A stretch of 64,000 nucleotides of DNA, taken from NCBI GenBank assembly GCA_964035015.1, contig OZ035997.1, positions 17,130,923 through 17,194,922 on the forward strand, read 5' to 3'. Below are positions 27,648 to 56,401 of the stretch, piece by piece. Both the position numbers and the translations under genes were made by a program. The DNA comes from Corallium rubrum. Its lineage: Eukaryota > Cnidaria > Anthozoa > Scleralcyonacea > Coralliidae. The notes beneath the pieces are model-generated. The model was not told the DNA's origin, did no database searches, and was given only the letters and a program-made list of their open reading frames with translations. Each line of letters begins with the position of its first letter. Within the stretch, counting starts at the first letter, position 1.

Positions 27648-27686
27648 CTACTGGGAGTACTCCCAGTAGTGGTCCTTCTAAGGACC
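27648..27686 (+). other. Perfect 22-bp palindrome and hairpin 2 (NA-1)
   Basis: A 22-bp perfect palindrome (27648-27669, centre AGTACT) is followed directly by GGTCCT-TCTA-AGGACC (27671-27686). The second hairpin corresponds to GGTTCT-CTTC-AGAACC in the other two families. Both lie within ORF1 coding sequence here. Confidence 0.55.
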
Positions 27687-31295: not shown

Positions 31296-31387
31296 ATCGA
31301 GTTTTAGCGATCGAAACGTTCCTGCTCTACGAGTTCTTCGAGTTCTTTGAGTTGTCTTCGAGCTACAAAAGTGACTGAGGTGGATCC

Positions 31388-31765
31388 ATGCTCCAGACTT
31401 GTCTGGTAACACTTCTACACTTCTTCGAGTTTGTCAACGCTTGTTGGTGGTACTGGTCCGCGCCTGCTTGGTGGTTCTCTTCAGAACCTTGGTACCTCCT
31501 TCCAGCGGTGGTCTTCTCGTGTCTGGTTTGGCCGTGGTTTCGTTCGGCGCCTTGGTGGCCTTGGCTTCCGTGGTGCTTTGCCTGGCGGTCTAGCTCTACT
31601 GGGTTCCTGAGTTGTCTTGGTGACCCTTGGCTTACTGAGCCTTCAGTCCCAGCGCCCACGTCCTTTGGGCGCTCACGTGAGTTTTGTGTGTGTTGTATCT
31701 TTGCTTCCTTTGCAAGGTATACTGCGTGTAGGGTATTCTTTCTTTCTCACCCTTTTTACTGCGCG
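31388..31765 (+). other. Hairpin-rich 5' leader with in-frame Trp-rich extension
   Basis: It holds hairpin 1 (31393-31406), hairpin 2 (31473-31488) and a 7-bp stem AGCGCCC/GGGCGCT near 31650. The frame is open from an ATG at 31388 into ORF1, which would add 126 residues rich in Trp, Phe and Leu. The third family has a similar open extension. Conserved stems favour a structured RNA; a translated extension is less likely but possible. Confidence 0.5.
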
Positions 31766-36100: not shown

Positions 36101-36700
36101 CACCGCTGTGTAGCCAAGTTTGAGTTTCTGGGTCCCATCCGTTGGAAATACATGTGGGCGTGCATGGGTCTCTGGCGCTTCCTCCGCCCAGTTCAAGACA
36201 CCTCGTGGCTGATTGCTCATGGCATTCTCCCCACCGCTGACCGCCTCATCCGGTTTGGCATGTCCAATGTTGTTCCTCTATGTCACTGTGGTGCAGTAGA
36301 GGACTTGGTCCATCTCTTTACCGAGTGTTCCTTTACGAACCCGCTTTTTGGCTGGTTTTCTTCCCTGCTGGGACAGGCTCGCCCTCGCTCCCCATGGCCT
36401 TCTCGGAAGGAAATCCTACTCGGTTTTGACCGTCCTTCTGGAGTTCCTTTAGGCTTTGCAGCACTGATGGGCATTCTCCGTCATGGTATCTGGCTTGCCC
36501 GGAATGCGCACCGCTTTGATGGCGTTCAACCGGATCATCGTCTTGTTTTAAGGCGTTGTCGATCATCGTTTCGGTTTCTTCTCCGAATTCAGCGTCGCCA
36601 CTGCAGCTATTCGGTCTTTCATGACGTCTGGCTGGCTGGGGGCATTTTTGGTTCGATCACTCCGGAAGGGGGCGTTGTTTTTACTCCAACGCTCTGCTGA
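33167..36700 (+). CDS. ORF2 endonuclease-reverse transcriptase
   Basis: 1177 residues. The protein nicks the U2 target and primes reverse transcription there. N-terminal APE-like endonuclease (about 1-240): LNVEGL with N10, CLQETH with E39, ACIYGPN, LCGDFNT, RIDMIWIP and SDHS, i.e. the set of catalytic and binding motifs. Reverse transcriptase (about 515-780): NWRPITLL, D602 in LSLDQEKAFDRVEW, GVRQGCPLSP, and the catalytic Y704-A-D-D. A C-terminal zinc motif C1039-X-C1041-X7-H1049-X4-C1054 matches the Cys motif of L1/Tx1 ORF2. No interruption is seen. No restriction-like endonuclease or RNase H domain was noticed. Sequence specificity for U2 is inferred from the insertion site. Confidence 0.93.
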   Translation: MAGIRIITLNVEGLRSLQNRQTLMSWLNCFLPEIVCLQETHSTSEAEFDGWFSSNNLSINNSNRYKYVSSPGSDRSCGVAILYRPSLEVVRSWKDDSGRLVTVEFRRANFNFQVACIYGPNTKRAGTSFFESMYQALDPDVPALLCGDFNTVVDPYVDRFGCNPTSAWAYNWSSTLRDLMETCDLCDAWRAKHAGVADFTWRRPNGSQGSRIDMIWIPQRYLSLVTSVDIFPFFRSDHSCVFLDINLPSVVERGRGLWKFNTSHLRDAAFCRKVNEFWTAWRLERARFHFLSAWWDAGKVRLKRLIREYSREKSTNHKLTVKSLTQTLYHLQRRINNGEQLHGLLADVKAELASELLMEAEGAKLRAQIRWAEEGESSTAYFLRQEKARGQQRLISGVNRPDGSLASSTQAMLDVWRDYYSGLFTSQHLEEESQATFLDSLERTLSPTNIESCEGDLTEDECKNALKQMSSKKSPGVDGLPAEFFLRFWGLLGPDLVAVLNSCYHCGRLSKSQRSGAITLLFKKGDPLDTANWRPITLLCVDYKIAAKALANRLLRVIASVVSPDQVCGIPGRFMGENVRLLHDVVAYANSEALPAAILSLDQEKAFDRVEWSYMNKVLVRMGFGPSFLKWVNLLYTGVSSAVMVNGFISMPFSVSRGVRQGCPLSPLLYVLVAESLACAIRADSSIDGFPLPGGCKRVKLSQYADDTTTLVASDESMVNLFSLFGRYEQASGAKLNQRKCHGLLLGPWRSRTSLPVQLQWSSTCIVALGSRVANDGAEDWGPLVGQLELLLSSWSRRSLSFRGRALIANILGLSIFWYLASVSTMPPDVTQRINALVFPFVWGKKREWLRRESVTQPPDCGGLGVVDVSRKVLSLQVLWVKRFLLGEDRGWQSFFAHYLRRAFLAEPVSRVFELTSASPATLRRLPPFYRSVLEAWFAVGGCRAFGAWLVPRGNAAPIPLAELSASAAYRSLAVHQPHRCVAKFEFLGPIRWKYMWACMGLWRFLRPVQDTSWLIAHGILPTADRLIRFGMSNVVPLCHCGAVEDLVHLFTECSFTNPLFGWFSSLLGQARPRSPWPSRKEILLGFDRPSGVPLGFAALMGILRHGIWLARNAHRFDGVQPDHRLVLRRCRSSFRFLLRIQRRHCSYSVFHDVWLAGGIFGSITPEGGVVFTPTLC

Positions 36701-37380
36701 CATTCCAGAAGCAAATTGCGTTCCCGCTCAGTCCAGAGCGCTCGTTTTACTATGGCCATTCGGGCCTCTTTTATCGTTTTTAACGCGTCTCCCATTCCTT
36801 ATTTTCTTGTAGACACTCTCTCCAGGAAAGACCGACTTTTTAGGCGTCTTCTGATACTGCTCGGTGTCAGTTAAGGCGAGACAGTGTCATGGCCCATACT
36901 CCGGTTTGGGTCCCCCTTAGGCCATTTTTTTAATTAGATGTGTGTAACCGTGTGTGGAGATAGCGCCGGCGGAACCTGCTTGCAGGGGGCCGCATGGGGA
37001 TCTCTAATTTTTAATTAAAATCGTCTGGTCTCTTGACTAGGCGTCGTCTTCTCGGATAAGGACGTTAAACCGGAGGTCCACCTCCGATTTGGGCAAACAC
37101 CCGGTGAGGTTCTTTTAGTTGTGAGTCTTCTCACGGCCTGCGGGCTCGTCACATCTCAACGTTACCATCGTTCTTTCATCAATTTTGTCTCATAAGGTCA
37201 CCTAGTGAACCCTTTGCACACTCATATATGTCTTATCAGGCGTGGAGGAAGGTTCATTACCTTCATGAGACATCGATGTGGCTCGTAGCCACCTCCGCAG
37301 GAAAACTCTCATTCACACGATTTCAGGGCTCATTTGCACCGTCGAGTCTGTTAGTTAATCGTGAGAGTTTAACCCAAAAC
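36701..37380 (+). other. 3' UTR of the autonomous element
   Basis: Contains hairpins CGGAGGT/ACCTCCG (37071-37086), GTGAG-TCTT-CTCAC near 37121 and GTGGCT-CGT-AGCCAC (37278-37292). The last is followed by CTCCGC, and CATTTGCACCG and TTTAAC...AAAAC come later, all echoed in order at the 3' end of the 1.8-kb elements. Likely the template region recognised by ORF2. Confidence 0.6.
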
Positions 37381-40551: not shown

Positions 40552-42357
40552 TTTTGTCATTAGGTTCGTGATATTACGAGTTTCAGTTGGTTCTGTTCTC
40601 GTTGTCAGTTGATCACCTGTTGGTAGAGGACGCTTTGCACCCCCAACAGGCCGGCTGGCTAAACAGTTCTCATGGCCTCAACGAGTTCTTCGAGTTCGAG
40701 TGCTGTTAGGGCGCAGGTGGTGGATCCATGCTCCAGCTTACAGGCTGGTAACACTGCCTCGCCCTCGTCGAGTTTGACAACGCCGGTGCGGACTATGGCC
40801 GATGTGGTTGGTGACCGTGCTACTGGGAGTACTCCCAGTAGTGGTCCTTCTAAGGACCTTCCAGCCCCGTCGCTCGTAGTTCCGTACCCAGAACGCTGCG
40901 CCGTGGTCACCGTTCCTTCGTTGGCCCTGGCGGGGAAACCGAAGCTGTCGCCGGGGGAAGTCTGGGACGCTTTAGAGAAGGAATTCTCTCCTGCGGCCCA
41001 ATACTTCGCCCAGATCCAGTCCCTGCGCACTGACCGCTTCCGTCTCTGGTGCACGTCGCCGGAGGTTTTGGAAAACGTTATCGCGGCTGGTATCTCCATT
41101 CGTGGTTTCCCGTGTAAGATCCAGCCCTATTCCTACAAGAAGAAGAGCTGGGTCACCGTGACACACTTGCCCTATGGCTTGCCGGAGGAGGAATTGAAAG
41201 TATTCTTCGGCCGCTATGGGGTGGTGTGTAAGTTGGTCTACGTGCTGTTCCGGAACGTGAGAACTGGGACAGTGAAGCTTCTTATGGAGCTACGAGAGGC
41301 CATCCCGACGCGTGTTCGCATCTGCGGTCATGCTGGGCTGGTCTATCACCAGGGGCAGGTTCGTACCTGCTTCAATTGTGGAGCGGTCGGACATGAGTCC
41401 CGCCGCTGCCCTAAGAAGCAGGTCCCTGTCACGAAGACGAAGGCAAATCCTCCTTCGGGTGCCGGCGCGGACGATGTGGCCCCTCTGGGGCCTCAGCGTA
41501 AGCGCAAGCGTAACCGTCGGAGGAAGTCGAAGAGGGCCGTGGCCCCTTCGGACGCCCCTTCTTCGTCCCAGCCAGGGGCCCCAGTCGAGGCGATGGAGGA
41601 TTCGTCGAGTGGCTCTGAGCCACTTGCGAAGAGACCCGCCTTGGACGTCGTCCCTGCGACGGGTGGCTCTTCGGATCCACCTCTGGACTCGGAGCCTGTG
41701 GTCGAGGTCATGGAGACGGCCGTTGTTGATGACGGTCCCTTCGTGGGTTTCGCATCACGGGCTGTGAAAGAACTTCGCGAGCTCCATGTGGAATCTCGTG
41801 AAGCTTTGGACCGAGATTACCCTCGTGATGTGGGCAACTCCGACTATCGTTGGATTGGTGGATCCCACATCTACGTTGAGGACGGAGAAATTTGGGGCGA
41901 TGATGTGGACCCTGCGGTTCCTATGTCGCCTGCCTCGCGGCTCCACCTCCGGAAACGGGGAAATGAGATCCGCGCGTTTTTGGGATCGGTAGATAACTCC
42001 GAGTATGGGATTGTTTCCAATTCGGTTGTCCTCTATCGAGGGGACGGCTCGGAGGTGGCTCGATGTACTCTGCGGCATGGCCGGGAGTACTCGTTTGTGG
42101 AGGATTAGGATCGCCATTTCATGTGCATTCTATAATACCATCCATTCCCGACTCCCTCGGCTGGTCTGCTTTTAGCTGATCGGTCCTGGGTGACCATTTT
42201 TGTCGTTTCTGGCGCAACGGAGAGAGGGTCGCATCCTCTTTTGGTCTGAGTGGCAAGCGTAAGTCACCTCCGCGGAATAGTCCCGTGCACTCAGGGACCC
42301 ACGAAGCCATTGCACCGACGAGCATCTTTATGTCCTGAGGGGGCTTAACTTCAAAAC
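40552..42357 (+). mobile_element. U2-specific 1.8-kb retrotransposon, copy NA-2
   Basis: 1806 bp, same site, orientation and architecture as NA-1. Its ORF1-like gene is intact and carries C-terminal domain variant II. Confidence 0.9.
40672..42108 (+). CDS. ORF1-like protein with acidic C-terminal domain (NA-2, variant II)
   Basis: 478 residues. Order of parts: Ser/Thr-rich N terminus; a segment homologous to the autonomous ORF1 starting at VPYPERC; an RRM-like stretch with SWVTVTHLPYGLPEEEL and FFGRYGVV; a zinc knuckle CFNCGAVGHESRRC; a strongly basic likely nuclear localisation stretch KRKRNRRRKSKR; then about 140 residues of acidic C-terminal domain (LHVESREALDRDYP, GNSDYRW, YVEDGEIWGDDVDP, RGNEIRAFLG, DGSEVARCTL) not found in the autonomous ORF1. 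Probably an RNA-binding RNP protein. The role of the C-terminal domain is unknown, and I recognise no family for it. Confidence 0.8.
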   Translation: MASTSSSSSSAVRAQVVDPCSSLQAGNTASPSSSLTTPVRTMADVVGDRATGSTPSSGPSKDLPAPSLVVPYPERCAVVTVPSLALAGKPKLSPGEVWDALEKEFSPAAQYFAQIQSLRTDRFRLWCTSPEVLENVIAAGISIRGFPCKIQPYSYKKKSWVTVTHLPYGLPEEELKVFFGRYGVVCKLVYVLFRNVRTGTVKLLMELREAIPTRVRICGHAGLVYHQGQVRTCFNCGAVGHESRRCPKKQVPVTKTKANPPSGAGADDVAPLGPQRKRKRNRRRKSKRAVAPSDAPSSSQPGAPVEAMEDSSSGSEPLAKRPALDVVPATGGSSDPPLDSEPVVEVMETAVVDDGPFVGFASRAVKELRELHVESREALDRDYPRDVGNSDYRWIGGSHIYVEDGEIWGDDVDPAVPMSPASRLHLRKRGNEIRAFLGSVDNSEYGIVSNSVVLYRGDGSEVARCTLRHGREYSFVED

Positions 42358-42523
42358 AAGATCAAGTGTAGTATCTGTTCTTATCAGCTTAATATCTGAT
42401 ATGCCAGGCAACGCCTGGCTCATATATTAAACTGATTTTTGGGCTTCGGCCATGGGATTGAAGCTTGCTTCGCCCTGGCCACGGGTTGTCTCGGTATCGC
42501 ACTACCTCCGAGTACGGCCCTCT
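42358..42523 (+). pseudogene. U2 3' fragment of copy 31
   Basis: nt 23 onward, after NA-2. Confidence 0.92.
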
Positions 42524-42843
42524 TCCCTTCGGGGAAGAACATCACTATCGAAAATAAAGCAAAAACTCATCAACAACACAACTACATACACGGCTCCCTT
42601 CCACTAATTTCGCACATCAATTCTTTATATTTTACAGATATCAACAGAACCCATCGAGTTCGACGCCGCAAGACAACACCGTCGCTAAAGACACCGAGAG
42701 GGTAGAGCAAGCACGTTTCTTTCCTCATTTTTGTTTAATCGGCATGCTGGCTATCGGAATTCAGTTGGCGACAAATTACCCTATTAACCACATGCCGCTG
42801 ACTCGTAGTACCCGGTCATAGGCTTTCTGCGACAAACACATGC

Positions 42844-42932
42844 ATACTTACCTGACGCGAGAGGTACTTTGATCAACAAGGAAGTCCTCTCAGGATGAGG
42901 CCCTCTCATTGCACTTCGACTGGGTTGACTCC

Positions 42933-42964
<32 letters not shown>

Positions 42965-43007
42965 TATAATTTCTGGTAGTGGGGACCTGCGTTCGCGCTC
43001 GTCCCCT
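42844..43007 (+). ncRNA. U1 snRNA copy 31
   Basis: Full length. A one-base deletion (GGGCTTCTGGAAC) lies only in the spacer downstream. Confidence 0.95.
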
Positions 43008-43158
43008 TACAACAAACCAATCAAAAGCAAACTCATCCAACGCGCGAGCACACGGGCTTCTGGAACATTCGATTTCACCGTTCTTATGTTCCTCGTCGAC
43101 CTCTCGTGCCACAACGCCGAACGACCGCTATAAAAGCGATATTTTCACCTCCTCCAAT

Positions 43159-43219
43159 GTCTACGACCATACCACCGGGAAAGCACCGGTTCTCGTCTGA
43201 TCACCGAAGTTAAGCCCGG

Positions 43220-43254
<35 letters not shown>

Positions 43255-43278
43255 GGGAATACCCCGTGTCGTAGACAC
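43159..43278 (+). rRNA. 5S rRNA copy 31 (U62 type)
   Basis: Full length; T62 with a short, unusual T-rich tract after it. Confidence 0.95.
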
Positions 43279-43390
43279 CTTTTTCTTTTTTTTTCTTTCA
43301 GACGCTTCGAGCGCGTGGGCTGACCTGGGCCGAACCACATCGTTGCTCCAGCTTCTTCCCGGGCAAAACATAACTTTTTTATTGGTCGTT

Positions 43391-43412
43391 ATCGCTTCTC
43401 GGCCTATTGGCT
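43391..43412 (+). pseudogene. U2 5' fragment (nt 1-22) of copy 32
   Basis: Interrupted after TTGGCT by NA-3. Confidence 0.92.
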
Positions 43413-45211
43413 TTTTGTCGGTAGGTTCGTGATGTTACGAGATTCAGTTGGTTCTGTTCTCGTTGTCAGTTGATCACCTGTTGGTAGAGGACGCTTTGCA
43501 CCCCCAACAGGCCGGCTGACTAAACAGTTCTTATGGCCTCTACGAGTTCGAGTGCTGTTAGGGCGCAGGTGGTGGATCCATGCTCCAGCTTACAGGCTGG
43601 TAACACTGTCTCGCCCTCTTCGAGAGTGACAACGCCGGTGCGGACTATGGCCGATGTGGTTGGTGACCGTGCTACTGGGAGTACTCCCAGTAGTGGTCCT
43701 TCTAAGGACCTTCCAGCCCCGTCGCTCGTAGTTCCGTATCCAGAACGCTGCGCCGTGGTCACCGTTCCTTCGTTGGCCCTGGCGGGGAAACCGAAGCTGT
43801 CGCCGGGGGAAGTCTGGGACGCTTTAGAGAAGGAATTCTCTCCTGCGGCCCAATACTTCGCCCAGATCCAGTCCCTGCGCACTGATCGCTTCCGTCTCTG
43901 GTGCCAGTCACCGGAGGTTTTGGAGGAGGTCATCGCGGCTGGTATCACTATCCGTGGTTTCCCGTGCAAGATCCAGCCCTATTCCTACAAGAAGAAGAGC
44001 TGGGTCACCGTGACACACTTGCCCTATGGCTTACCGGAGGAGGAATTAAAAGTATTCTTCGGTCGCTATGGGGTGGTGTGCAAGTTGGTCTACGTGCTGT
44101 TCCGGAACGTGAGAACTGGGACAGTCAAGATACTGATGGAGCTGCGAGAGGCCATCCCGACGCGTGTTCGCATCTGCGGTCATGCTGGGCTGGTCTATCA
44201 CCAGGGGCAGGTTCGCACCTGTTTTCATTGTGGCACGGTTGGACATGAGTCCCGCCGTTGCCCGAAGAAGCAGGTCACTGTCACGAAGACGACGGCGAAT
44301 CCTTCTTCGGGTGCCGGCGCGGACGCTGCGGCCCCTCCGGGGCCTCTCGTAAGCGCAAGCGTAACCGTAGGAGGAAGTCGAAGAAGGCCGTGGCCCCTTC
44401 GGACGCCCCTTCTTCGTCCCAGCCAGGGGCCCCAGTCGAGGCGATGGAGGATTCGTCGAGTGGCTCTGAGCCACTGGCGAAGAAACCCGCCTTGGAGTCG
44501 ACCCTGCGACGGGTGGTTCTTCGGATCCACCTCTGGACTCGGCCCCGGTAGGTGGAGGTCATGGAGGAGCCTGTTGGAATTGACAGGTCTGCGTGGCTTG
44601 CCTCGGAGGCTGTGAAGCACTTCACGAGCTCCATGTGGAATCTCGTGAGGCGCTTTGACCGGGATTTCCCTCGTGACTGGGAAACTCGGACTATCGTTTG
44701 GTCGCTGGCTCCTACATCTACGTAGAGGACAACGAAGTTTATGGTGATGAGCTGGACCCTGCGGTTCCTCGTATCGCCTGCCTGCGGATCCACCTCCGGA
44801 AGCGGGGGATGAGATCCGCTCGTTTTGGGAAGGTTGCGGCACGGTCGTACTCTACGTTATGGGATTGTCTTCCAACATGTTATCCTCTATCGAGAGGATG
44901 GCGTGGAGTCGCAGTTGGGTAGTACACGGCGGAGATCGTGTTTGCCATGTGGATTAGGTGGGGTGGTCATTTCATGGTCATTCCCTAATTTTCATCCATT
45001 CCCGACTCCCTCGGCCGGTCCGCTTTAAGTGGATCGGTCCTGGGTGACCATTTTTGTCGTTTCTGGCGCAACGGAGAGAGGGTCGCATCCTCTTTTGGTC
45101 TGAGTGGCAAGCGTAAGCCACCTCCGCGGAATAGTCCCATGCACTCAGGGACCCACGATGCCATTGCACCGACGAGCATCTTTATGTCCTGAGGGGGCTT
45201 AACTTCAAAAC
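43413..45211 (+). mobile_element. U2-specific 1.8-kb retrotransposon, copy NA-3
   Basis: 1799 bp; closest by eye to NA-4, including domain variant III, but its gene is broken. Confidence 0.9.
43533..44957 (+). pseudogene. ORF1-like gene of NA-3, frameshifted
   Basis: Reads intact from ATG 43533 through the RRM-like part and the zinc knuckle CFHCGTVGHESRRC. Several single-base indels then break it, starting near 44343 before the basic stretch and continuing through the C-terminal domain; the longest open frame stops at 44615. The remnants match NA-4 variant III up to the original stop at 44955-44957. Confidence 0.85.
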
Positions 45212-45377
45212 AAGATCAAGTGTAGTATCTGTTCTTATCAGCTTAATATCTGATATGCCAGGCAACGCCTGGCTCATATATTAAACTGATTTTTGGGCTT
45301 CGGCCATGGGATTGAAGCTTGCTTCGCCCTGGCCACGGGTTGTCTCGGTATCGCACTACCTCCGAGTACGGCCCTCT
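45212..45377 (+). pseudogene. U2 3' fragment of copy 32
   Basis: nt 23 onward, after NA-3. Confidence 0.92.
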
Positions 45378-45697
45378 TCCCTTCGGGGAAGAACATCACT
45401 ATCGAAAATAAAGCAAAAACTCATCAACAACACAACTACATACACGGCTCCCTTCCACTAATTTCGCACATCAATTCTTTATATTTTACAGATATCAACA
45501 GAACCCATCGAGTTCGACGCCGCAAGACAACACCGTCGCTAAAGACACCGAGAGGGTAGAGCAAGCACGTTTCTTTCCTCATTTTTGTTTAATCGGCATG
45601 CTGGCTATCGGAATTCAGTTGGCGACAAATTACCCTATTAACCACATGCCGCTGACTCGTAGTACCCGGTCATAGGCTTTCTGCGACAAACACATGC

Positions 45698-45786
45698 ATA
45701 CTTACCTGACGCGAGAGGTACTTTGATCAACAAGGAAGTCCTCTCAGGATGAGGCCCTCTCATTGCACTTCGACTGGGTTGACTCC

Positions 45787-45818
<32 letters not shown>

Positions 45819-45861
45819 TATAATTTCTGGTAGTGGGGACCTGCGTTCGCGCTCGTCCCCT
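45698..45861 (+). ncRNA. U1 snRNA copy 32
   Basis: Full length; as copy 2. Confidence 0.95.
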
Positions 45862-46013
45862 TACAACAAACCAATCAAAAGCAAACTCATCCAACGCGCG
45901 AGCACACGGGCTTCGTGGAACATTCGATTTCACCGTTCTTATGTTCCTCGTCGACCTCTCGTGCCACAACGCCGAACGACCGCTATAAAAGCGATATTTT
46001 CACCTCCTCCAAT

Positions 46014-46075
46014 GTCTACGACCATACCACCGGGAAAGCACCGGTTCTCGTCTGATCACCGAAGTTAAGCCCGGG

Positions 46076-46109
<34 letters not shown>

Positions 46110-46133
46110 GGGAATACCCCGTGTCGTAGACAC
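46014..46133 (+). rRNA. 5S rRNA copy 32 (G62 type)
   Basis: Full length; as copy 12. The unit spacer is AAAGC, so the unit is mosaic. Confidence 0.95.
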
Positions 46134-46246
46134 CTTTTTCTTTTTTCTTTCTTTCAGACGCTTCGAGCGCGTGGGCTGACCTGGGCCGAACCACATCGTT
46201 GCTCCAGCTTCTTCCCGGGCAAAACATAACTTTTTTATGGGTCGTT

Positions 46247-46268
46247 ATCGCTTCTCGGCCTATTGGCT
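46247..46268 (+). pseudogene. U2 5' fragment (nt 1-22) of copy 33
   Basis: Interrupted after TTGGCT by NA-4. Confidence 0.92.
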
Positions 46269-48089
46269 TTTTGTCATTAGGTTCTTGATGTTACGAGATT
46301 CAGTTGGTTCTGTTCTCGTTGTCAGTTGATCACCTGTTGGTAGAGGACGCTTTGCACCCCCAACAGGCCGGCTGACTAAACAGTTCTTATGGCCTCTACG
46401 AGTTCGAGTGCTGTTAGGGCGCAGATGGTGGATCCATGCTCCAGCTTACAGGCTGGTAACACTGTCTCGCCCTCTTCGAGAGTTACAACGCCGGTACGGA
46501 CTATGGCCGATGTGGTTGGTGACCGTGCTACTGGGAGTACTCCCAGTAGTGGTCCTTCTAAGGACCTTCCAGCCCCGTCGCTCGTAGTTCCGTACCCAGA
46601 ACGCTGCGCCGTGGTCACCGTTCCTTCGTTGGCCCTGGCGGGGAAACCGAAGCTGTCGCCGGGGGAAGTCTGGGACGCTTTAGAGAAGGAATTCTCTCCT
46701 GCGGCCCAATACTTCGCCCAGATCCAGTCCCTGCGCACTGATCGCTTCCGTCTCTGGTGCCAGTCACCGGAGGTTTTGGAGGAGGTCATCGCGGCTGGTA
46801 TCACTATCCGTGGTTTCCCGTGCAAGATCCAGCCCTATTCATACAAGAAGAAGAGCTGGGTCACCGTGACACACTTGCCCTATGGCTTGCCGGAGGAGGA
46901 ATTAAAAGTATTCTTCGGCCGCTATGGGGTGGTGTGCAAGTTGGTCTACGTGCTGTTCCGGAACGTGAGAACTGGGACAGTCAAGATACTGATGGAGCTG
47001 CGAGAGGCCATCCCGACGCGTGTTCGCATTTGCGGTCATGCTGGGCTGGTCTATCACCAGGGGCAGGTTCGCACCTGTTTTCATTGTGGCACGGTTGGAC
47101 ACGAGTCCCGCCGTTGTCCGAAGAAGCAGGTCACTGTCACGAAGACGACGGCGAATCCTCCTTCGGGTGCCGGCGCGGACGATGTGGCCCCTCCGGGGCC
47201 TCCTCGTAAGCGCAAGCGTAACCGTAGGAGGAAGTCGAAGAAGGCCGTGGCCCCTTCGGACGCCCCTTCTTCGTCCCAGCCAGGGGCCCCAGCCGAGGCG
47301 ATGGAGGATTCGTCAAGTGGCTCTGAGCCACTGGCGAAGAAACCCGCCTTGGAAGTCGACCCTGCGACGGGTGGTTCTTCGGATCCACCTCTGGACTCGG
47401 CCCCGGTAGTGGAGGTCATGGAGGAGCCTGTTGGAATTGACAGGGTCTGCGTGGCTTGCCCTCCGGAGGCTGTGCAAGCACTTCACGAGCTCCATGTGGA
47501 ATCTCGTGAGGCGTTCGACCGGGATTTCCCTCGTGACATCGGAAACTCGGACTATCGTTTGGTCGCTGGCTCCTACATCTACGTAGAGGACAACGAAGTT
47601 TATGGTGATGAGCTGGACCCTGCGGTTCCTCTGTACTCACCTGCCCAGCGGATCCACCTCCGGAAGCGGGGTGATGAGATCCGCTCGATTTTGGGAAAGG
47701 TTGCGCGCACCGGTCGTACTCTACGTTATGACTTGTCTTCCAACAATGTTATCCTCTACCGAGAGGATGGCGTGGAGTTACGCCAGTGTGGGGTAGTTCA
47801 CGGGCGGCAGATCGTGTTTGCCCATGTGGATTAGGTGGGGCTGGTCATTTCATGGTCATTCCCTAATTTTCATCCATTCCCGACTCCCTCGGCCGGTCCG
47901 CTTTAAGTGGATCGGTCCTGGGTGACCATTTTTGTCGTTTCTGGCGCAACGGAGAGAGGGTCGCATCCTCTTTTGGTCTGAGTGGCAAGCGTAAGCCACC
48001 TCCGCGGAATAGTCCCATGCACTCAGGGACCCACGATGCCATTGCACCGACGAGCATCTTTATGTCCTGAGGGGGCTTAACTTCAAAAC
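46269..48089 (+). mobile_element. U2-specific 1.8-kb retrotransposon, copy NA-4
   Basis: 1821 bp with an intact ORF1-like gene. NA-3 plus its unit and NA-4 plus its unit form two consecutive blocks of about 2.86-2.88 kb. Confidence 0.9.
46389..47834 (+). CDS. ORF1-like protein with acidic C-terminal domain (NA-4, variant III)
   Basis: 481 residues from the conserved ATGGCCTCTACGAG start. The N-terminal half is nearly the same as in NA-2 and NA-6: RRM-like stretch, zinc knuckle CFHCGTVGHESRRC and basic stretch KRKRNRRRKSKK. The C-terminal domain is a third variant: HVESREAFDRDFPRDIGNSD, YVEDNEVYGDELDP, RGDEIRSILG, and an ending in FAHVD rather than EIEED. The domain is recognisably homologous to variants I and II but far more diverged than the rest. 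No endonuclease or RT lies downstream; the 3' UTR follows. Confidence 0.8.
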   Translation: MASTSSSAVRAQMVDPCSSLQAGNTVSPSSRVTTPVRTMADVVGDRATGSTPSSGPSKDLPAPSLVVPYPERCAVVTVPSLALAGKPKLSPGEVWDALEKEFSPAAQYFAQIQSLRTDRFRLWCQSPEVLEEVIAAGITIRGFPCKIQPYSYKKKSWVTVTHLPYGLPEEELKVFFGRYGVVCKLVYVLFRNVRTGTVKILMELREAIPTRVRICGHAGLVYHQGQVRTCFHCGTVGHESRRCPKKQVTVTKTTANPPSGAGADDVAPPGPPRKRKRNRRRKSKKAVAPSDAPSSSQPGAPAEAMEDSSSGSEPLAKKPALEVDPATGGSSDPPLDSAPVVEVMEEPVGIDRVCVACPPEAVQALHELHVESREAFDRDFPRDIGNSDYRLVAGSYIYVEDNEVYGDELDPAVPLYSPAQRIHLRKRGDEIRSILGKVARTGRTLRYDLSSNNVILYREDGVELRQCGVVHGRQIVFAHVD

Positions 48090-48255
48090 AAGATCAAGTG
48101 TAGTATCTGTTCTTATCAGCTTAATATCTGATATGCCAGGCAACGCCTGGCTCATATATTAAACTGATTTTTGGGCTTCGGCCATGGGATTGAAGCTTGC
48201 TTCGCCCTGGCCACGGGTTGTCTCGGTATCGCACTACCTCCGAGTACGGCCCTCT
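48090..48255 (+). pseudogene. U2 3' fragment of copy 33
   Basis: nt 23 onward, after NA-4. Confidence 0.92.
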
Positions 48256-48575
48256 TCCCTTCGGGGAAGAACATCACTATCGAAAATAAAGTAAAAACTC
48301 ATCAACAACACAACTACATACACGGCTCCCTTCCACTAATTTCGCACATCAATTCTTTATATTTTACAGATATCAACAGAACCCATCGAGTTCGACGCCG
48401 CAAGACAACACCGTCGCTAAAGACACCGAGAGGGTAGAGCAAGCACGTTTCTTTCCTCATTTTTGTTTAATCGGCATGCTGGCTATCGGAATTCAGTTGG
48501 CGACAAATTACCCTATTAACCACATGCCGCTGACTCGTAGTACCCGGTCATAGGCTTTCTGCGACAAACACATGC

Positions 48576-48664
48576 ATACTTACCTGACGCGAGAGGTACT
48601 TTGATCAACAAGGAAGTCCTCTCAGGATGAGGCCCTTTCATTGCACTTCGACTGGGTTGACTCC

Positions 48665-48696
<32 letters not shown>

Positions 48697-48739
48697 TATA
48701 ATTTCTGGTAGTGGGGACCTGCGTTCGCGCTCGTCCCCT
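48576..48739 (+). ncRNA. U1 snRNA copy 33 (C62T)
   Basis: Full length with a normal 5' end; one C-to-T change at 48637 (GGCCCTTTC) near the base of stem-loop II. Probably still functional. Confidence 0.93.
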
Positions 48740-48891
48740 TACAACAAACCAATCAAAAGCAAACTCATCCAACGCGCGAGCACACGGGCTTCGTGGAACA
48801 TTCGATTTCACCGTTCTTATGTTCCTCGTCGACCTCTCGTGCCACAACGCCGAACGACCGCTATAAAAGCGATATTTTCACCTCCTCCAAT

Positions 48892-48953
48892 GTCTACGAC
48901 CATACCACCGGGAAAGCACCGGTTCTCGTCTGATCACCGAAGTTAAGCCCGGG

Positions 48954-48987
<34 letters not shown>

Positions 48988-49011
48988 GGGAATACCCCGT
49001 GTCGTAGACAC
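48892..49011 (+). rRNA. 5S rRNA copy 33 (G62 type)
   Basis: Full length; as copy 12. Confidence 0.95.
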
Positions 49012-49124
49012 CTTTTTCTTTTTTCTTTCTTTCAGACGCTTCGAGCGCGTGGGCTGACCTGGGCCGAACCACATCGTTGCTCCAGCTTCTTCCCGGGCAA
49101 AACATAACTTTTTTATGGGTCGTT

Positions 49125-49146
49125 ATCGCTTCTCGGCCTATTGGCT
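49125..49146 (+). pseudogene. U2 5' fragment (nt 1-22) of copy 34
   Basis: Interrupted after TTGGCT by NA-5. Confidence 0.92.
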
Positions 49147-50938
49147 TTTTGTCATTAGGTTCGTGATATTACGAGTTCAGTTGGTTCTGTTCTCGTTGTC
49201 AGTTGATCACCTGTTGGTAGAGGACGCTTTGCACCCCCAACAGGCCGGCTGCTAAACAGTTCTGGGCCTCAACGAGTTCTACGAGTGCTGTTAGGGCGCA
49301 GGTGGTGGATCCATGCTCCAGCTTACAGGCTGGTAACACTGCCTCGCCCTCTTCGAGATTGACAACGCCGGTGCGGACTATGGCCGATGTGGTTGGTGAC
49401 CGTGCTACTGGGAGTACTCCCAGTAGTGGTCCTTCTAAGGACCTTCCAGCCCCGTCGCTCGTAGTTCCGTACCCAGAACGCTGCGCCGTGGTCACCGTTC
49501 CTTCGTTGGCCTTGGCGGGGAAACGAAGCTGTCGCCGGGGGAAGTCTGGGACGCTTTAGAGAAGGAATTCTCTCCTGCGGCCAGTACTTCGCCCAGATCC
49601 AGTCTTGCGCTCTGATCGCTTCCGTCTCTGGTGCCAGTCACCGGAGGTTTTGGAAAACGTCATCGCGGCTGGTATCTACCATTCGTGGTTTCCCCGTGTG
49701 ATCCGGCCCTATTCCTACAAGAAGAAGAGTTGGGTCACCGTGACGCACCTGCCCTATGGCATACCGGAGGAGGAATTGAAAGTATTCTTCGGTCGCTATG
49801 GGGTGGTGTGCAAGCTGTCTACGTGCTGTTCCGGAACGTGAGGACTGGGACAGTAAAGATTTTGATGGAGCTACGAGAGGCCATCCCGACGCGTGTTCGC
49901 ATCTGCGGTCATGCTGGGCTGGTCTATCACCAGGGGCAGGTTCGTACCTGTTTCAATTGTGGAGCGGTTGGACATGAGTCCCGCCGCTGCCCAAAGAAGC
50001 AGGTCCCTGCCACGAAGTCGACGGCGAATCCTTCTTCGGGTGCCGGCGCGGACGCCCGCCCTTCGGGGCCTAAGCGTAAGCGCAAGCGTAACCGTCGGAG
50101 GAAGTCGAAGAAGGCCGTGGCCCCTTCGGACGCCCCTTCTTCGTCCCAGCCAGGGGCCCCAGTCGAGGTGATGGAGGATTCGTCGAGTGGCTCTGAGCCA
50201 CTCGCGAAGAGACCCGCCTTGGTCGTCGACCCTGCGACGGGTGGCTCTTCGGATCCACCTCTGGACTCGGCACCGGTTGTGAGGTCATGGAGACTGCTGT
50301 GGGTTCTCACATTGTCGGCGTGCCCTCCGATGATCCGGTTGTACAGTTCCTTCACGAGCTCCATGTGGCATCTCGTGCGGCTCTGGACCGCGATTACCCA
50401 CGCAGTGAGGACAATTCGGATTACCGTCTCGTCCACGGTTCCTATGTTTTTGTGGAGGAGGGTGAGGTTTTTGGCGACGATGTCGATCCTTCGGATCCCA
50501 TGCCGCCTGGCTGGCGGCTTCACATGCAGCATAGGGGCGATGAGATCCGCGCGTTTTTGGGTTCGGGTGTGGTCTTCGACTATGACTTGCTTTCGGACAA
50601 GGCTATCCTCTTCACGGAGGACGGGTCGGAGATCCGGCGGTGTACCTTGCGGTATACCCGCCCGGTGGAGATTGAGGAGGATTAGGTGTGGGTTGCCATT
50701 TTCATGTGCATTCCATAAATCCATCCATTCCCGACTCCCTCGGCCGGTCTGCTTTAGCTGGATCGGTCCTGGGTGACCATTTTTGTCGTTTCTGGCGCAA
50801 CGGAGAGAGGGTCGCATCCTCTTTTGGTCTGAGTGGCAAGCGTAAGCCACCTCCGCGGAATAGTTCCTGCACTTAGGGATTCACGATGTCATTTGCACCG
50901 CGGCATCTTTATATCCTGAAGGGGCTTAACTTCAAAAC
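49147..50938 (+). mobile_element. U2-specific 1.8-kb retrotransposon, copy NA-5
   Basis: 1792 bp; the most degraded of the six copies but still full length at both ends. Confidence 0.9.
49265..50685 (+). pseudogene. ORF1-like gene of NA-5, multiply frameshifted
   Basis: The start codon is lost (TTCTGGGCCTC where others have TTCTTATGGCCTC). Small deletions break the frame near 49527, 49585, 49600 and 49818, and again before the C-terminal domain near 50280. Zinc knuckle CFNCGAVGHESRRC and the basic stretch remain readable. The C-terminal domain is variant I, in frame from 50287 to the stop at 50685. Confidence 0.85.
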
Positions 50939-51104
50939 AAGATCAAGTGTAGTATCTGTTCTTATCAGCTTAATATCTGATATGCCAGGCAACGCCTGGC
51001 TCATATATTAAACTGATTTTTGGGCTTCGGCCATGGGATTGAAGCTTGCTTCGCCCTGGCCACGGGTTGTCTCGGTATCGCACTACCTCCGAGTACGGCC
51101 CTCT
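50939..51104 (+). pseudogene. U2 3' fragment of copy 34
   Basis: nt 23 onward, after NA-5. Confidence 0.92.
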
Positions 51105-51424
51105 TCCCTTCGGGGAAGAACATCACTATCGAAAATAAAGCAAAAACTCATCAACAACACAACTACATACACGGCTCCCTTCCACTAATTTCGCACATCA
51201 ATTCTTTATATTTTACAGATATCAACAGAACCCATCGAGTTCGACGCCGCAAGACAACACCGTCGCTAAAGACACCGAGAGGGTAGAGCAAGCACGTTTC
51301 TTTCCTCATTTTTGTTTAATCGGCATGCTGGCTATCGGAATTCAGTTGGCGACAAATTACCCTATTAACCACATGCCGCTGACTCGTAGTACCCGGTCAT
51401 AGGCTTTCTGCGACAAACACATGC

Positions 51425-51513
51425 ATACTTACCTGACGCGAGAGGTACTTTGATCAACAAGGAAGTCCTCTCAGGATGAGGCCCTCTCATTGCACTTCGA
51501 CTGGGTTGACTCC

Positions 51514-51545
<32 letters not shown>

Positions 51546-51588
51546 TATAATTTCTGGTAGTGGGGACCTGCGTTCGCGCTCGTCCCCT
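51425..51588 (+). ncRNA. U1 snRNA copy 34
   Basis: Full length; as copy 2. Confidence 0.95.
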
Positions 51589-51740
51589 TACAACAAACCA
51601 ATCAAAAGCAAACTCATCCAACGCGCGAGCACACGGGCTTCGTGGAACATTCGATTTCACCGTTCTTATGTTCCTCGTCGACCTCTCGTGCCACAACGCC
51701 GAACGACCGCTATAAAAGCGATATTTTCACCTCCTCCAAT

Positions 51741-51802
51741 GTCTACGACCATACCACCGGGAAAGCACCGGTTCTCGTCTGATCACCGAAGTTAAGCCCG
51801 GG

Positions 51803-51836
<34 letters not shown>

Positions 51837-51860
51837 GGGAATACCCCGTGTCGTAGACAC
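51741..51860 (+). rRNA. 5S rRNA copy 34 (G62 type)
   Basis: Full length; as copy 12. Confidence 0.95.
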
Positions 51861-51973
51861 CTTTTTCTTTTTTCTTTCTTTCAGACGCTTCGAGCGCGTG
51901 GGCTGACCTGGGCCGAACCACATCGTTGCTCCAGCTTCTTCCCGGGCAAAACATAACTTTTTTATGGGTCGTT

Positions 51974-52161
51974 ATCGCTTCTCGGCCTATTGGCTAAGAT
52001 CAAGTGTAGTATCTGTTCTTATCAGCTTAATATCTGATATGCCAGGCAACGCCTGGCTCATATATTAAACTGATTTTTGGGCTTCGGCCATGGGATTGAA
52101 GCTTGCTTCGCCCTGGCCACGGGTTGTCTCGGTATCGCACTACCTCCGAGTACGGCCCTCT
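51974..52161 (+). ncRNA. U2 snRNA copy 35
   Basis: Full length; as copy 2. Confidence 0.95.
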
Positions 52162-52481
52162 TCCCTTCGGGGAAGAACATCACTATCGAAAATAAAGTAA
52201 AAACTCATCAACAACACAACTACATACACGGCTCCCTTCCACTAATTTCGCACATCAATTCTTTATATTTTACAGATATCAACAGAACCCATCGAGTTCG
52301 ACGCCGCAAGACAACACCGTCGCTAAAGACACCGAGAGGGTAGAGCAAGCACGTTTCTTTCCTCATTTTTGTTTAATCGGCATGCTGGCTATCGGAATTC
52401 AGTTGGCGACAAATTACCCTATTAACCACATGCCGCTGACTCGTAGTACCCGGTCATAGGCTTTCTGCGACAAACACATGC

Positions 52482-52570
52482 ATACTTACCTGACGCGAGA
52501 GGTACTTTGATCAACAAGGAAGTCCTCTCAGGATGAGGCCCTCTCATTGCACTTCGACTGGGTTGACTCC

Positions 52571-52602
<32 letters not shown>

Positions 52603-52645
52603 TATAATTTCTGGTAGTGGGGACCTGCGTTCGCGCTCGTCCCCT
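52482..52645 (+). ncRNA. U1 snRNA copy 35
   Basis: Full length; as copy 2. Confidence 0.95.
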
Positions 52646-52797
52646 TACAACAAACCAATCAAAAGCAAACTCATCCAACGCGCGAGCACACGGGCTTCGT
52701 GGAACATTCGATTTCACCGTTCTTATGTTCCTCGTCGACCTCTCGTGCCACAACGCCGAACGACCGCTATAAAAGCGATATTTTCACCTCCTCCAAT

Positions 52798-52859
52798 GTC
52801 TACGACCATACCACCGGGAAAGCACCGGTTCTCGTCTGATCACCGAAGTTAAGCCCGGG

Positions 52860-52893
<34 letters not shown>

Positions 52894-52917
52894 GGGAATA
52901 CCCCGTGTCGTAGACAC
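52798..52917 (+). rRNA. 5S rRNA copy 35 (G62 type)
   Basis: Full length; as copy 12. Confidence 0.95.
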
Positions 52918-53030
52918 CTTTTTCTTTTTTCTTTCTTTCAGACGCTTCGAGCGCGTGGGCTGACCTGGGCCGAACCACATCGTTGCTCCAGCTTCTTCCC
53001 GGGCAAAACATAACTTTTTTATGGGTCGTT

Positions 53031-53218
53031 ATCGCTTCTCGGCCTATTGGCTAAGATCAAGTGTAGTATCTGTTCTTATCAGCTTAATATCTGATATGCC
53101 AGGCAACGCCTGGCTCATATATTAAACTGATTTTTGGGCTTCGGCCATGGGATTGAAGCTTGCTTCGCCCTGGCCACGGGTTGTCTCGGTATCGCACTAC
53201 CTCCGAGTACGGCCCTCT
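53031..53218 (+). ncRNA. U2 snRNA copy 36
   Basis: Full length; as copy 2. Confidence 0.95.
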
Positions 53219-53538
53219 TCCCTTCGGGGAAGAACATCACTATCGAAAATAAAGTAAAAACTCATCAACAACACAACTACATACACGGCTCCCTTCCACT
53301 AATTTCGCACATCAATTCTTTATATTTTACAGATATCAACAGAACCCATCGAGTTCGACGCCGCAAGACAACACCGTCGCTAAAGACACCGAGAGGGTAG
53401 AGCAAGCACGTTTCTTTCCTCATTTTTGTTTAATCGGCATGCTGGCTATCGGAATTCAGTTGGCGACAAATTACCCTATTAACCACATGCCGCTGACTCG
53501 TAGTACCCGGTCATAGGCTTTCTGCGACAAACACATGC

Positions 53539-53627
53539 ATACTTACCTGACGCGAGAGGTACTTTGATCAACAAGGAAGTCCTCTCAGGATGAGGCCCTC
53601 TCATTGCACTTCGACTGGGTTGACTCC

Positions 53628-53659
<32 letters not shown>

Positions 53660-53702
53660 TATAATTTCTGGTAGTGGGGACCTGCGTTCGCGCTCGTCCC
53701 CT
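53539..53702 (+). ncRNA. U1 snRNA copy 36
   Basis: Full length; as copy 2. Confidence 0.95.
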
Positions 53703-53854
53703 TACAACAAACCAATCAAAAGCAAACTCATCCAACGCGCGAGCACACGGGCTTCGTGGAACATTCGATTTCACCGTTCTTATGTTCCTCGTCGACCTCT
53801 CGTGCCACAACGCCGAACGACCGCTATAAAAGCGATATTTTCACCTCCTCCAAT

Positions 53855-53916
53855 GTCTACGACCATACCACCGGGAAAGCACCGGTTCTCGTCTGATCAC
53901 CGAAGTTAAGCCCGGG

Positions 53917-53950
<34 letters not shown>

Positions 53951-53974
53951 GGGAATACCCCGTGTCGTAGACAC
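53855..53974 (+). rRNA. 5S rRNA copy 36 (G62 type)
   Basis: Full length; as copy 12. Confidence 0.95.
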
Positions 53975-54087
53975 CTTTTTCTTTTTTCTTTCTTTCAGAC
54001 GCTTCGAGCGCGTGGGCTGACCTGGGCCGAACCACATCGTTGCTCCAGCTTCTTCCCGGGCAAAACATAACTTTTTTATGGGTCGTT

Positions 54088-54109
54088 ATCGCTTCTCGGC
54101 CTATTGGCT
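54088..54109 (+). pseudogene. U2 5' fragment (nt 1-22) of copy 37
   Basis: Interrupted after TTGGCT by NA-6. Confidence 0.92.
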
Positions 54110-55915
54110 TTTTGTCATTAGGTTCGTGATATTACGAGTTTCAGTTGGTTCTGTTCTCGTTGTCAGTTGATCACCTGTTGGTAGAGGACGCTTTGCACCC
54201 CCAACAGGCCGGCTGACTAAACAGTTCTTATGGCCTCTACGAGTTCGAGTGCTGTTAGGGCGCAGACGGTGGATCCATGCTCCAGCTTACAGGCTGGTAA
54301 CACTGTCTCGCCCTCTTCGAGAGTTACAACGCCGGTACGGACTATGGCCGATGTGGTTGGTGACCGTGCTACTGGGAGTACTCCCAGTAGTGGTCCTTCT
54401 AAGGACCTTCCAGCCCCGTCGCCCGTAGTTCCGTACCCAGAACGCTGCGCCGTGGTCACCGTTCCTTCGTTGGCCCTGGCGGGGAAATCGAAGCTGTCGC
54501 CGGGGGAAGTGTGGGACGCTTTAGAGAAGGAATTCTCTCCTGCGGCCCAGTACTTCGCCCAGATCCAGTCCCTGCGCACTGACCGCTTCCGTCTCTGGTG
54601 CACGTCGCCGGAGGTTTTGGAAAACGTCATCGCGGCTGGTATCTCCATTCGTGGTTTCCCGTGTAAGATCCAGCCCTATTCCTACAAGAAGAAGAGCTGG
54701 GTCACCGTCACGCACTTGCCCTATGGCTTGCCGGAGGAGGAATTGAAAGTATTCTTCGGCGGCTATGGGGTGGTGTGTAAGCTGGTCTACGTGCTGTTCC
54801 GGAACGTGAGGACTGGGACAGTAAAGCTTCTTATGGAGCTACGAGAGGCCATCCCGACGCGTGTTCGCATCTGCGGTCATGCTGGGCTGGTCTATCACCA
54901 GGGGCAGGTTCGTACCTGTTTTCATTGTGGCACGGTTGGACATGAGTCCCGCCGTTGCCCCAAGAAGAAGCAGGTCACTGCCACGCAGAAGACGGCGAAG
55001 CCTTCTTCGGGTGCCGACGCGGACGCGGCGACCCTTACGGGGTCTAAGCGTAAGCGTAAGCGCAACCGTAGGAGGAAGTCGAAGAGGGCCGTGGCCCCTT
55101 CGGACGCCCCTTCTTCGTCCCAGCCAGGGGCCCCAGTCGAGGTGATGGAGGATTCGTCGAGTGGCTCTGAGCCACTTGCGAAGAAACCCGCCTTGGAAGT
55201 TGACCCTGCGACGGGTGGCTCTTCGGATCCACCTCTGGACTCGGCACCGGTTGTCGGGGACATGGAGACTGATGTGGGTTCTCACATTGTCGGCGTGCCC
55301 TCCGATGATCCGGTTGTACAGTTCCTTCACGAGCTCCATGTGGCATCTCGTGCGGCTCTGGACCGCGATTACCCACGCAGTGAGGACAATTCGGATTACC
55401 GTCTCGTCCACGGTTCCTATGTTTTTGTGGAGGAGGGTGAGGTTTTTGGCGACGATGTCGATCCTTCGGATCCCATGCCGCCTGGCTGGCGGCTTCACAT
55501 GCAGCATAGGGGCGATGAGATCCGCGCGTTTTTGGGTTCGGGTGTGGTCTTCGACTATGACTTGCTTTCGGACAAGGCTATCCTCTTCACGGAGGACGGG
55601 TCGGAGATCCGGCGGTGTACCTTGCGGTATACCCGCCCGGTGGAGATTGAGGAGGATTAGGTGTGGGTTGCCATTTTCATGTGCATTCCATAAATCCATC
55701 CATTCCCGACTCCCTCGGCTGTTCTGCCTTTAGCTGATCGGCCCTGGGTGACCATTTTTGTCGTTTCTGGCGCAACGGAGAGAGGGTCGCATCCTCTTTT
55801 GGTCTGAGTGGCATGCGTAAGCCACCTCCGCGGAATAGTTCCTTGCACTTAGGGATTCACGATGTCATTTGCACCGCCGGCATCTCTATATCCTGAAGGG
55901 GCTTAACTTCAAAAC
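54110..55915 (+). mobile_element. U2-specific 1.8-kb retrotransposon, copy NA-6
   Basis: 1806 bp with an intact ORF1-like gene. Its C-terminal and 3' UTR sequence is close to NA-1 and NA-5. Confidence 0.9.
54230..55660 (+). CDS. ORF1-like protein with acidic C-terminal domain (NA-6, variant I)
   Basis: 476 residues. RRM-like stretch, zinc knuckle C230-X2-C233-X4-H238-X4-C243, and basic stretch about 273-286 (KRKRKRNRRRKSKR). Acidic domain about 345-476 contains HELHVASRAALDRDYPRSED, YRLVHGSYVFVEEGEVFGDD, RGDEIRAFLG and FTEDGSEIRRC, ending EIEED. This is the intact representative of variant I; NA-1 and NA-5 are broken versions. The start is the conserved ATG used in NA-4. Presumed to bind its own RNA in cis and depend on ORF2 from another element. 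Confidence 0.8.
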   Translation: MASTSSSAVRAQTVDPCSSLQAGNTVSPSSRVTTPVRTMADVVGDRATGSTPSSGPSKDLPAPSPVVPYPERCAVVTVPSLALAGKSKLSPGEVWDALEKEFSPAAQYFAQIQSLRTDRFRLWCTSPEVLENVIAAGISIRGFPCKIQPYSYKKKSWVTVTHLPYGLPEEELKVFFGGYGVVCKLVYVLFRNVRTGTVKLLMELREAIPTRVRICGHAGLVYHQGQVRTCFHCGTVGHESRRCPKKKQVTATQKTAKPSSGADADAATLTGSKRKRKRNRRRKSKRAVAPSDAPSSSQPGAPVEVMEDSSSGSEPLAKKPALEVDPATGGSSDPPLDSAPVVGDMETDVGSHIVGVPSDDPVVQFLHELHVASRAALDRDYPRSEDNSDYRLVHGSYVFVEEGEVFGDDVDPSDPMPPGWRLHMQHRGDEIRAFLGSGVVFDYDLLSDKAILFTEDGSEIRRCTLRYTRPVEIEED

Positions 55916-56081
55916 AAGATCAAGTGTAGTATCTGTTCTTATCAGCTTAATATCTGATATGCCAGGCAACGCCTGGCTCATATATTAAACTGATTTTTGG
56001 GCTTCGGCCATGGGATTGAAGCTTGCTTCGCCCTGGCCACGGGTTGTCTCGGTATCGCACTACCTCCGAGTACGGCCCTCT
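55916..56081 (+). pseudogene. U2 3' fragment of copy 37
   Basis: nt 23 onward, after NA-6. Confidence 0.92.
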
Positions 56082-56401
56082 TCCCTTCGGGGAAGAACAT
56101 CACTATCGAAAATAAAGTAAAAACTCATCAACAACACAACTACATACACGGCTCCCTTCCACTAATTTCGCACATCAATTCTTTATATTTTACAGATATC
56201 AACAGAACCCATCGAGTTCGACGCCGCAAGACAACACCGTCGCTAAAGACACCGAGAGGGTAGAGCAAGCACGTTTCTTTCCTCATTTTTGTTTAATCGG
56301 CATGCTGGCTATCGGAATTCAGTTGGCGACAAATTACCCTATTAACCACATGCCGCTGACTCGTAGTACCCGGTCATAGGCTTTCTGCGACAAACACATG
56401 C

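Follow-up and report, generated by a model that had tools for sequence, protein, structure and literature searches.

How can one domain of a protein be far more divergent than the rest of the gene that encodes it? This question is raised by a 64-kb stretch of Corallium rubrum DNA (C1:17130923-17194922; we call the whole stretch the window), which is a tandem array with U2, U1 and 5S genes in each unit of ~1057 bp (Rfam). Six copies of a non-autonomous (NA) element, NA-1 to NA-6, interrupt its U2 genes. The original prediction described a nearly constant N-terminal half and a C-terminal domain (CTD) in three diverged variants, and suggested module exchange or diversifying selection as the cause. 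We compared the six copies with each other and with the 474-Mb assembly (312 contigs). We consider it likely that old CTD families sit on an exchanged backbone of U2-targeted elements that encode only open reading frame (ORF) 1.

The copies were placed through their exact U2 junctions and the alignment. On the forward strand, they occupy 27387..29181 (NA-1), 40552..42357 (NA-2), 43413..45211 (NA-3), 46269..48089 (NA-4), 49147..50938 (NA-5) and 54110..55915 (NA-6), with lengths of 1792-1821 bp. There are six, as predicted, but NA-1 lies outside the span of 41701..55660 first given for them. Over the N-terminal half (N-half), every pair is 94-98% identical in DNA (gaps are excluded throughout this comparison), which bears out its near constancy. 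Over the CTD, the last ~140 residues, identity is 90-99% within types and 62-74% between types; in the 3' untranslated region (UTR) and tail it is 86-100%. Divergence along the elements is not uniform: in 60-column windows, identity changes abruptly close to columns 1141 and 1620 of the alignment. The three types and their members had been correctly recognized as I (NA-1, NA-5 and NA-6), II (NA-2) and III (NA-3 and NA-4), with the qualification that NA-3 is frameshifted and its type III CTD resembles type II in two patches, columns 1478-1484 and columns 1543-1555. Similarly, the 3' UTR is shared as described except in the last ~80-100 nucleotides (nt), where a second identity step divides type I from types II and III (73-78% in columns 1741-1800). 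The tail of NA-6, at 55836..55915 on the forward strand, is representative of this type-dependent segment.

In only three copies, NA-2, NA-4 and NA-6, can ORF1 be read to the stop after the CTD without a frameshift or interruption. It is the single ORF of each intact copy and appears in the ORF list at 40672-42108 (478 aa), 46389-47834 (481 aa) and 54230-55660 (476 aa), respectively. NA-1 has a frameshift near the zinc knuckle, judged from its open frames, and NA-5 is also frameshifted. The CTD lies on the forward strand at 41677..42108 in NA-2 (type II; boundary from the alignment and from windows of synonymous divergence [dS]), 47385..47834 in NA-4 (type III) and 55229..55660 in NA-6 (type I). 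It is acidic, with net charges of -12, -9 and -19 and isoelectric points of 4.7, 5.0 and 4.4 in these three copies, and is preceded by a basic linker. The CCHC zinc knuckle of NA-2 matches zf-CCHC_6 and zf-CCHC above their Pfam cut-offs, while those of NA-4 and NA-6 fall under them; the match to RRM_1, an RNA recognition motif (RRM) family, has an E value of 0.013-0.016, under the Pfam cut-off. In the predicted NA ORF1 protein (ORF1p), an RRM-like part with a zinc knuckle is followed by a basic linker and then by the acidic domain of ~140 residues.

The insertion site is the same in all cases. An insertion follows U2 nt 22 in eight places: the six NA copies, an autonomous element and the beginning of a second autonomous-type element. 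U2 resumes at nt 23 in all seven elements with a visible 3' end, with no target-site duplication. At NA-6, U2 nt 1-22 are at 54088..54109, and U2 from nt 23 on is at 55916..56085, both on the forward strand; each of the other seven elements is likewise preceded by these 22 nt. We read NA elements as non-autonomous, non-long-terminal-repeat (non-LTR) retrotransposons that carry only ORF1 and insert between U2 nt 22 and 23. In a partial census, in which 46 of the 22,294 U2 candidates in the assembly were scored, all 30 full-score U2 genes were inside the window.

We then asked whether the CTD types exist elsewhere in the genome. Searches with the three types gave 29, 29 and 30 matches, and every search led to one identical set of 26 places, made up of the six NA copies of the window, 19 NA loci elsewhere and a chimera. 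A DNA search with the backbone gave 38 matches, the last few being only a short block common to other families. The NA loci are at C1 14.8, C1 17.16-17.77, C1 75.98-76.11 and C15 16.33-16.39 Mb, and the exact U2 half-site of the insertion was present in 17 of the first 20 loci fetched. By CTD identity, we found further copies of type I (L014 and L023), type II (L009) and type III (L013, L017, L018, L019, L027 and L028). Two types are absent from the window, type IV (L012, L015 and L021) and a separate C15 type (L010 and L011), and L024 and L025 have CTDs intermediate between types. The pattern is real and extends beyond the window. Within the reach of these searches, the autonomous ORF1 lacks the domain, as had been stated, since 25 of the 26 CTD places have the NA backbone and the remaining one is the chimera.

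Of 28 fetched stretches, 17 joined the six copies of the window in an alignment of 23 rows. L001-L008 were dropped as the same places as the window or L009-L014, and L016, L020, L022, L026 and L030-L036 (chimera and fragments) were left out. Across the aligned copies, the N-half is 81-98% identical, and the CTDs of types I-IV are 60-74% identical between types. For counts within and between types we used 18 typed copies (42 and 111 pairs), without L010, L011, L024, L025 and L029. In columns 1-546, identity is 90.9% within types and 91.5% between types; thus, this part of the element does not predict the CTD type. The corresponding values are 91.0% and 88.1% in columns 547-1092, 85.9% and 66.0% in the CTD, 93.9% and 90.7% in columns 1639-1794, and 93.9% and 83.1% in the tail. 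The 12 typed copies outside the window show a similar pattern.

The two parts of ORF1 are of unequal age. Among NA-2, NA-4 and NA-6, dS is 0.50-1.06 in the CTD and 0.11-0.18 in codons 84-341. With eight intact ORFs (28 pairs), the ratio of CTD dS to N-half dS was 0.6, 1.1 and 1.0 for the three pairs of the same type, 1.0 and 1.2 when L011 was paired with the two type I ORFs, and 1.6-9.8 in the other 23 pairs. Faster mutation of the CTD in place should raise its dS within types as well, and the three pairs available show no such excess. No pair of the 28 reaches a ratio of nonsynonymous to synonymous divergence (omega) of 1; CTD values are 0.37-0.92 overall and 0.37-0.64 among NA-2, NA-4 and NA-6, and a model with kappa fixed at 1 put omega at 0.29 in the N-half and at 0.53-0.56 in the CTD. 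By these estimates, the CTD is under weaker constraint than the N-half, with no overall positive selection; selection may act at single CTD sites. The dS contrast together with omega values below 1 argues for old domain families on a recombining backbone and not for rapid diversification in place. In the array, NA-2 to NA-5 occupy four consecutive units. The host units point the same way: since the units that house the variant copies differ from the commonest unit at just 0-5 positions, these copies probably did not diverge where they now lie.

Evidence for exchange came from several features. For trees, and for the tail counts and Mantel tests below, we used 20 copies (without L010, L025 and L029). 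The topologies conflict: the N-half, CTD and 3' UTR trees each reject the other two (approximately unbiased [AU] test, p <=0.0018). Incompatible sites are clustered along the element with or without the CTD (p = 0.0002 in a test like the pairwise homoplasy index [PHI]). NA-5 and NA-6 share a run of 467 identical columns that spans nearly all of the CTD, and they have 88 differences elsewhere. A run of this length was reached in none of 20,000 random placements of the 88 differences; therefore, the tract is not due to chance. NA-5 itself is a mosaic, in which a type I CTD and tail follow a backbone with some stretches like NA-3 and NA-4 and others like NA-2. Finally, the chimera L037 (C1:17290500-17299000, reverse strand ~1900-6452) joins an autonomous 5' part, made up of the 5' UTR, ORF1 and ORF2 with its endonuclease up to the edge of the reverse transcriptase (RT) domain, to an NA 3' half with the linker, CTD, 3' UTR and tail. 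The whole fusion lies within one U2 site, and both outer junctions are present, with one substitution in the U2 5' flank. Template switching in reverse transcription and array recombination both fit, and either may have produced it. A reading in which L037 contained the end of ORF2 was dropped on inspection of the DNA. With the topology tests, the PHI-like test, the dS contrast, the tract and the chimera, module exchange between copies, one of the two causes first proposed, is well supported. We propose that the 5' UTR, N-half and mid 3' UTR have been repeatedly exchanged, whether through gene conversion, through crossing-over within the array or through template switching. As a result, the backbone would have become younger than the CTDs it carries, which form several old homologous families under purifying selection.

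Several observations weigh against this interpretation. The N-half tree also groups copies of the same type (NA-3, NA-4 and L018; L012, L015 and L021; L013, L019 and L027), and backbone and CTD are not independent (Mantel r = 0.30-0.34, ancestry uncorrected). Columns 547-1092 still differ slightly within and between types, as given above. The dS argument uses only three within-type pairs of intact ORFs, and dead copies were included in the identity and tree analyses. Three of the four NA-5 sites in the 3' UTR that link it to NA-3 and NA-4 are one indel read as substitutions, so this part of the mosaic is weak. About 30 nt at the join of L037 are unmatched, and deletion or unequal exchange could explain the fusion. 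Mobility and protein functions are throughout deduced from sequence.

If old CTD families ride on an exchanged backbone, what kept several of them apart? It is quite possible, if somewhat short of an even chance, that they are neutral relics. Isolated lineages would have diverged, fastest in the weakly constrained CTD and with no selection for diversity; after secondary contact, recombination would have re-homogenized the backbone, the CTDs being too different by then. This would account for an N-half identity of 81-98% next to 60-74% among the CTDs of types I-IV, for the higher omega of the CTD, and for the exchange of patches within the closer pair of types, II and III, seen in NA-3. However, it does not by itself explain the coexistence of at least four types in one genome or the relation of the CTD to the tail. 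The CTD clades I/IV/C15 and II/III carry different tails in 18 of 20 copies, the exceptions being L023 and L024. CTD distance correlates with tail distance at 0.48 (Mantel test, 20 copies, ancestry uncorrected) across a mid 3' UTR that is itself weakly tied to the tail (0.13).

A second, more tentative possibility is that a CTD type fits a given ORF2 protein (ORF2p), 3' tail or its own kind in the ribonucleoprotein, which would give rare types an advantage and let balancing selection keep them all. The match between CTD clade and tail type is what such recognition would produce, and the tail gives the largest of the four segment correlations of the CTD (0.48 compared with 0.30, 0.34 and 0.40). 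Purifying selection within types and a peak of divergence with recombined flanks also agree with it. Against it are the two exceptions, the correlation of the tail with two backbone segments (0.41 and 0.32) and the fact that the tail counts and correlations are uncorrected for ancestry. Nothing other than the CTD-tail association hints at a functional pairing, and ancestry might account for that association. As the function of the CTD we favor, at a similarly modest probability, an ORF1 ribonucleoprotein recognition module, directed at itself, ORF2p or the matching 3' tail, with types that persist together. The more specific idea that the types are recognition alleles, each matching ORF1p to its own kind, to a tail or to a helper, and several of which are kept per U2 locus by frequency-dependent selection while the backbone recombines freely, seems to us rather unlikely.

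The remaining explanations fare worse. Diversifying selection on the CTD in place, for example to evade a host factor, would fit its higher omega, which reaches 0.83-0.92 in three pairs, but no pair exceeds 1 and synonymous divergence climbs in parallel. As a cause of the pattern, the diversifying selection first suggested is therefore highly improbable. We give very little credence to the idea that constraint on the RNA holds back synonymous change in the backbone and makes it look young: several N-half windows do have a dS of zero, and a 5' block is kept in other families in which it is not translated or is read in a different frame, but dS is about the same for the two parts within each of the three within-type pairs, and the same windows vary between other pairs. 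An assembly artefact of the tandem array, which the difficulty of assembling repeats and the small frameshifts in NA-1, NA-3 and NA-5 might suggest, can be practically dismissed, as the same types recur in distant C1 clusters and the domain also occurs on C15.

How would elements that carry only ORF1 move? The autonomous element at the same U2 site (31296..37380, forward strand) has an ORF1 listed at 31388-33166, the true start of which is uncertain, and an ORF2 at 33167-36700 (forward strand). ORF2 encodes an apurinic/apyrimidinic (AP) endonuclease and RT (Pfam Exo_endo_phos, 9.5e-18; RVT_1, 2.1e-29), and its best match in the PDB is human L1 ORF2p (E = 2.3e-79). Its ORF1 has no Pfam match and is 36-45% identical to NA-2 over the RRM-like and zinc-knuckle part. 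Setting aside NA copies and fragments, we found no autonomous ORF1 close to NA ORF1 in the assembly; the closest is 41% identical over the length of the N-half, with at most 48% over short stretches. The ends are alike: the last 100 nt of the autonomous and NA elements align with scores of 20-24, compared with shuffled means of -5 to -7, and with the last 12 nt held fixed, none of 1000 shuffles matched this similarity. The shared site, the similar 3' ends and the chimera suggest that NA elements are probably mobilized in trans by AP-endonuclease/RT elements of the same site.

The CTD had been called unrecognizable, and our searches agree. Among 11 CTD members, Pfam gave three families with one member each and a best E value of 0.039, which is no usable match; NCBIfam and PHROGs had no match to the three window types, and profile searches of the PDB gave best E values of 0.72 and 1.4. 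Of 30 pattern matches in viral contigs and 145 in prokaryotic contigs, none was confirmed (the eukaryotic search was that of this assembly), and with the six copies masked, no CTD-like stretch was found elsewhere in the window. Structure prediction gave no reliable model. We considered the C-terminal domain of L1 ORF1p, which we take to be similar to a double-stranded RNA-binding domain, as a relative; hidden Markov model searches with the NA CTD against the PDB and Pfam gave no match to it, and the predicted models were too weak to compare. A candidate internal repeat was rejected, as its score was reached by 61, 794 and 528 of 1000 shuffles. Positions invariant in all 11 aligned CTDs run through all types (e.g., L-x-V-x-S-R, G-x-x-x-D-P and R-G-x-E-I-R), and from these we infer that the types likely share one fold with variable surfaces.

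Other observations concern the neighborhood of the elements. Dozens more ORF1 matches, most of them with 24-59% identity to the ORF1 of NA or autonomous elements, lie densely in the regions of the NA loci at C1 17.2-17.8, C1 76.0-76.1 and C15 16.3-16.5 Mb, which by these matches hold several diverged families side by side. In L029/L039, an NA element is cut at ~nt 1047 and followed by ~200 nt and another U2 5' half; we rejected a reciprocal chimera, and the arrangement probably arose by deletion. In 58028-60044, of which 58801-59000 reads N, the further autonomous-type element starts at the U2 site; after it comes an opposite-strand ORF that is presumably GIY-YIG/Penelope-like. A block of ~66 nt, at 54268-54334 (NA-6), 31379-31440 and 58106-58171, is found in NA copies as well as in the autonomous and third elements, with 79-80% identity between the former and the latter two. 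It is coding in NA copies and untranslated or in another frame in the others, and is perhaps a cis-acting RNA or promoter element. In the array itself, the host unit at 19972-21022 has 14 differing positions and weaker U1 and 5S scores, while its neighbors equal the commonest unit exactly. The left end (1-920) joins U2 at ~nt 33, unlike the other insertions, and may be an element or the array edge.

If ORF1-only elements are long-lived and have an ORF1 family of their own with an exchangeable domain, they would be a natural setting in which to study the role of ORF1p and the competition of a non-autonomous element for the RT of another. A recombining backbone with a typed domain provides natural swaps for probing cis-preference and helper specificity. 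In the literature, surveyed largely at summary level, we found no exchangeable CTD in ORF1-only U2 elements.

The setting and the kind of element have known counterparts. The 5S-U2-U1 arrays of Acropora have the same gene order as the window, with a probe of 1731 bp compared with our unit of 1057 bp (PMC8167085). HAL1 (half-L1) elements of mammals are described as non-autonomous non-LTR elements that encode only ORF1 (PMC5753468), as NA elements do. However, HAL1 derives from L1, whereas NA ORF1 is not close to any autonomous ORF1 found (best 41% over the N-half), and NA has an extra C-terminal domain of several types. Keno and Utopia likewise insert in U2 snRNA genes, and the endonuclease of the autonomous partner is of the AP type, as in Keno, in contrast to the restriction-like endonuclease of Utopia. 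According to PMC4640811, U2 resumes at nt 39 after Utopia in Phytophthora, and the 3' flank of Keno is identical to that of Utopia; in the window U2 resumes at nt 23, although the former position follows the numbering of another species. NA is of a known kind, an ORF1-only family of long interspersed elements (LINEs), at a U2 site 16 nt from that of Utopia and, by that account, of Keno. Jockey-superfamily ORF1 is described in PMC4120745 as modular and subject to domain shuffling. There, modules such as PHD and esterase cross lineages, whereas NA elements exchange homologous variants of one unrecognized domain within one family and one genome.

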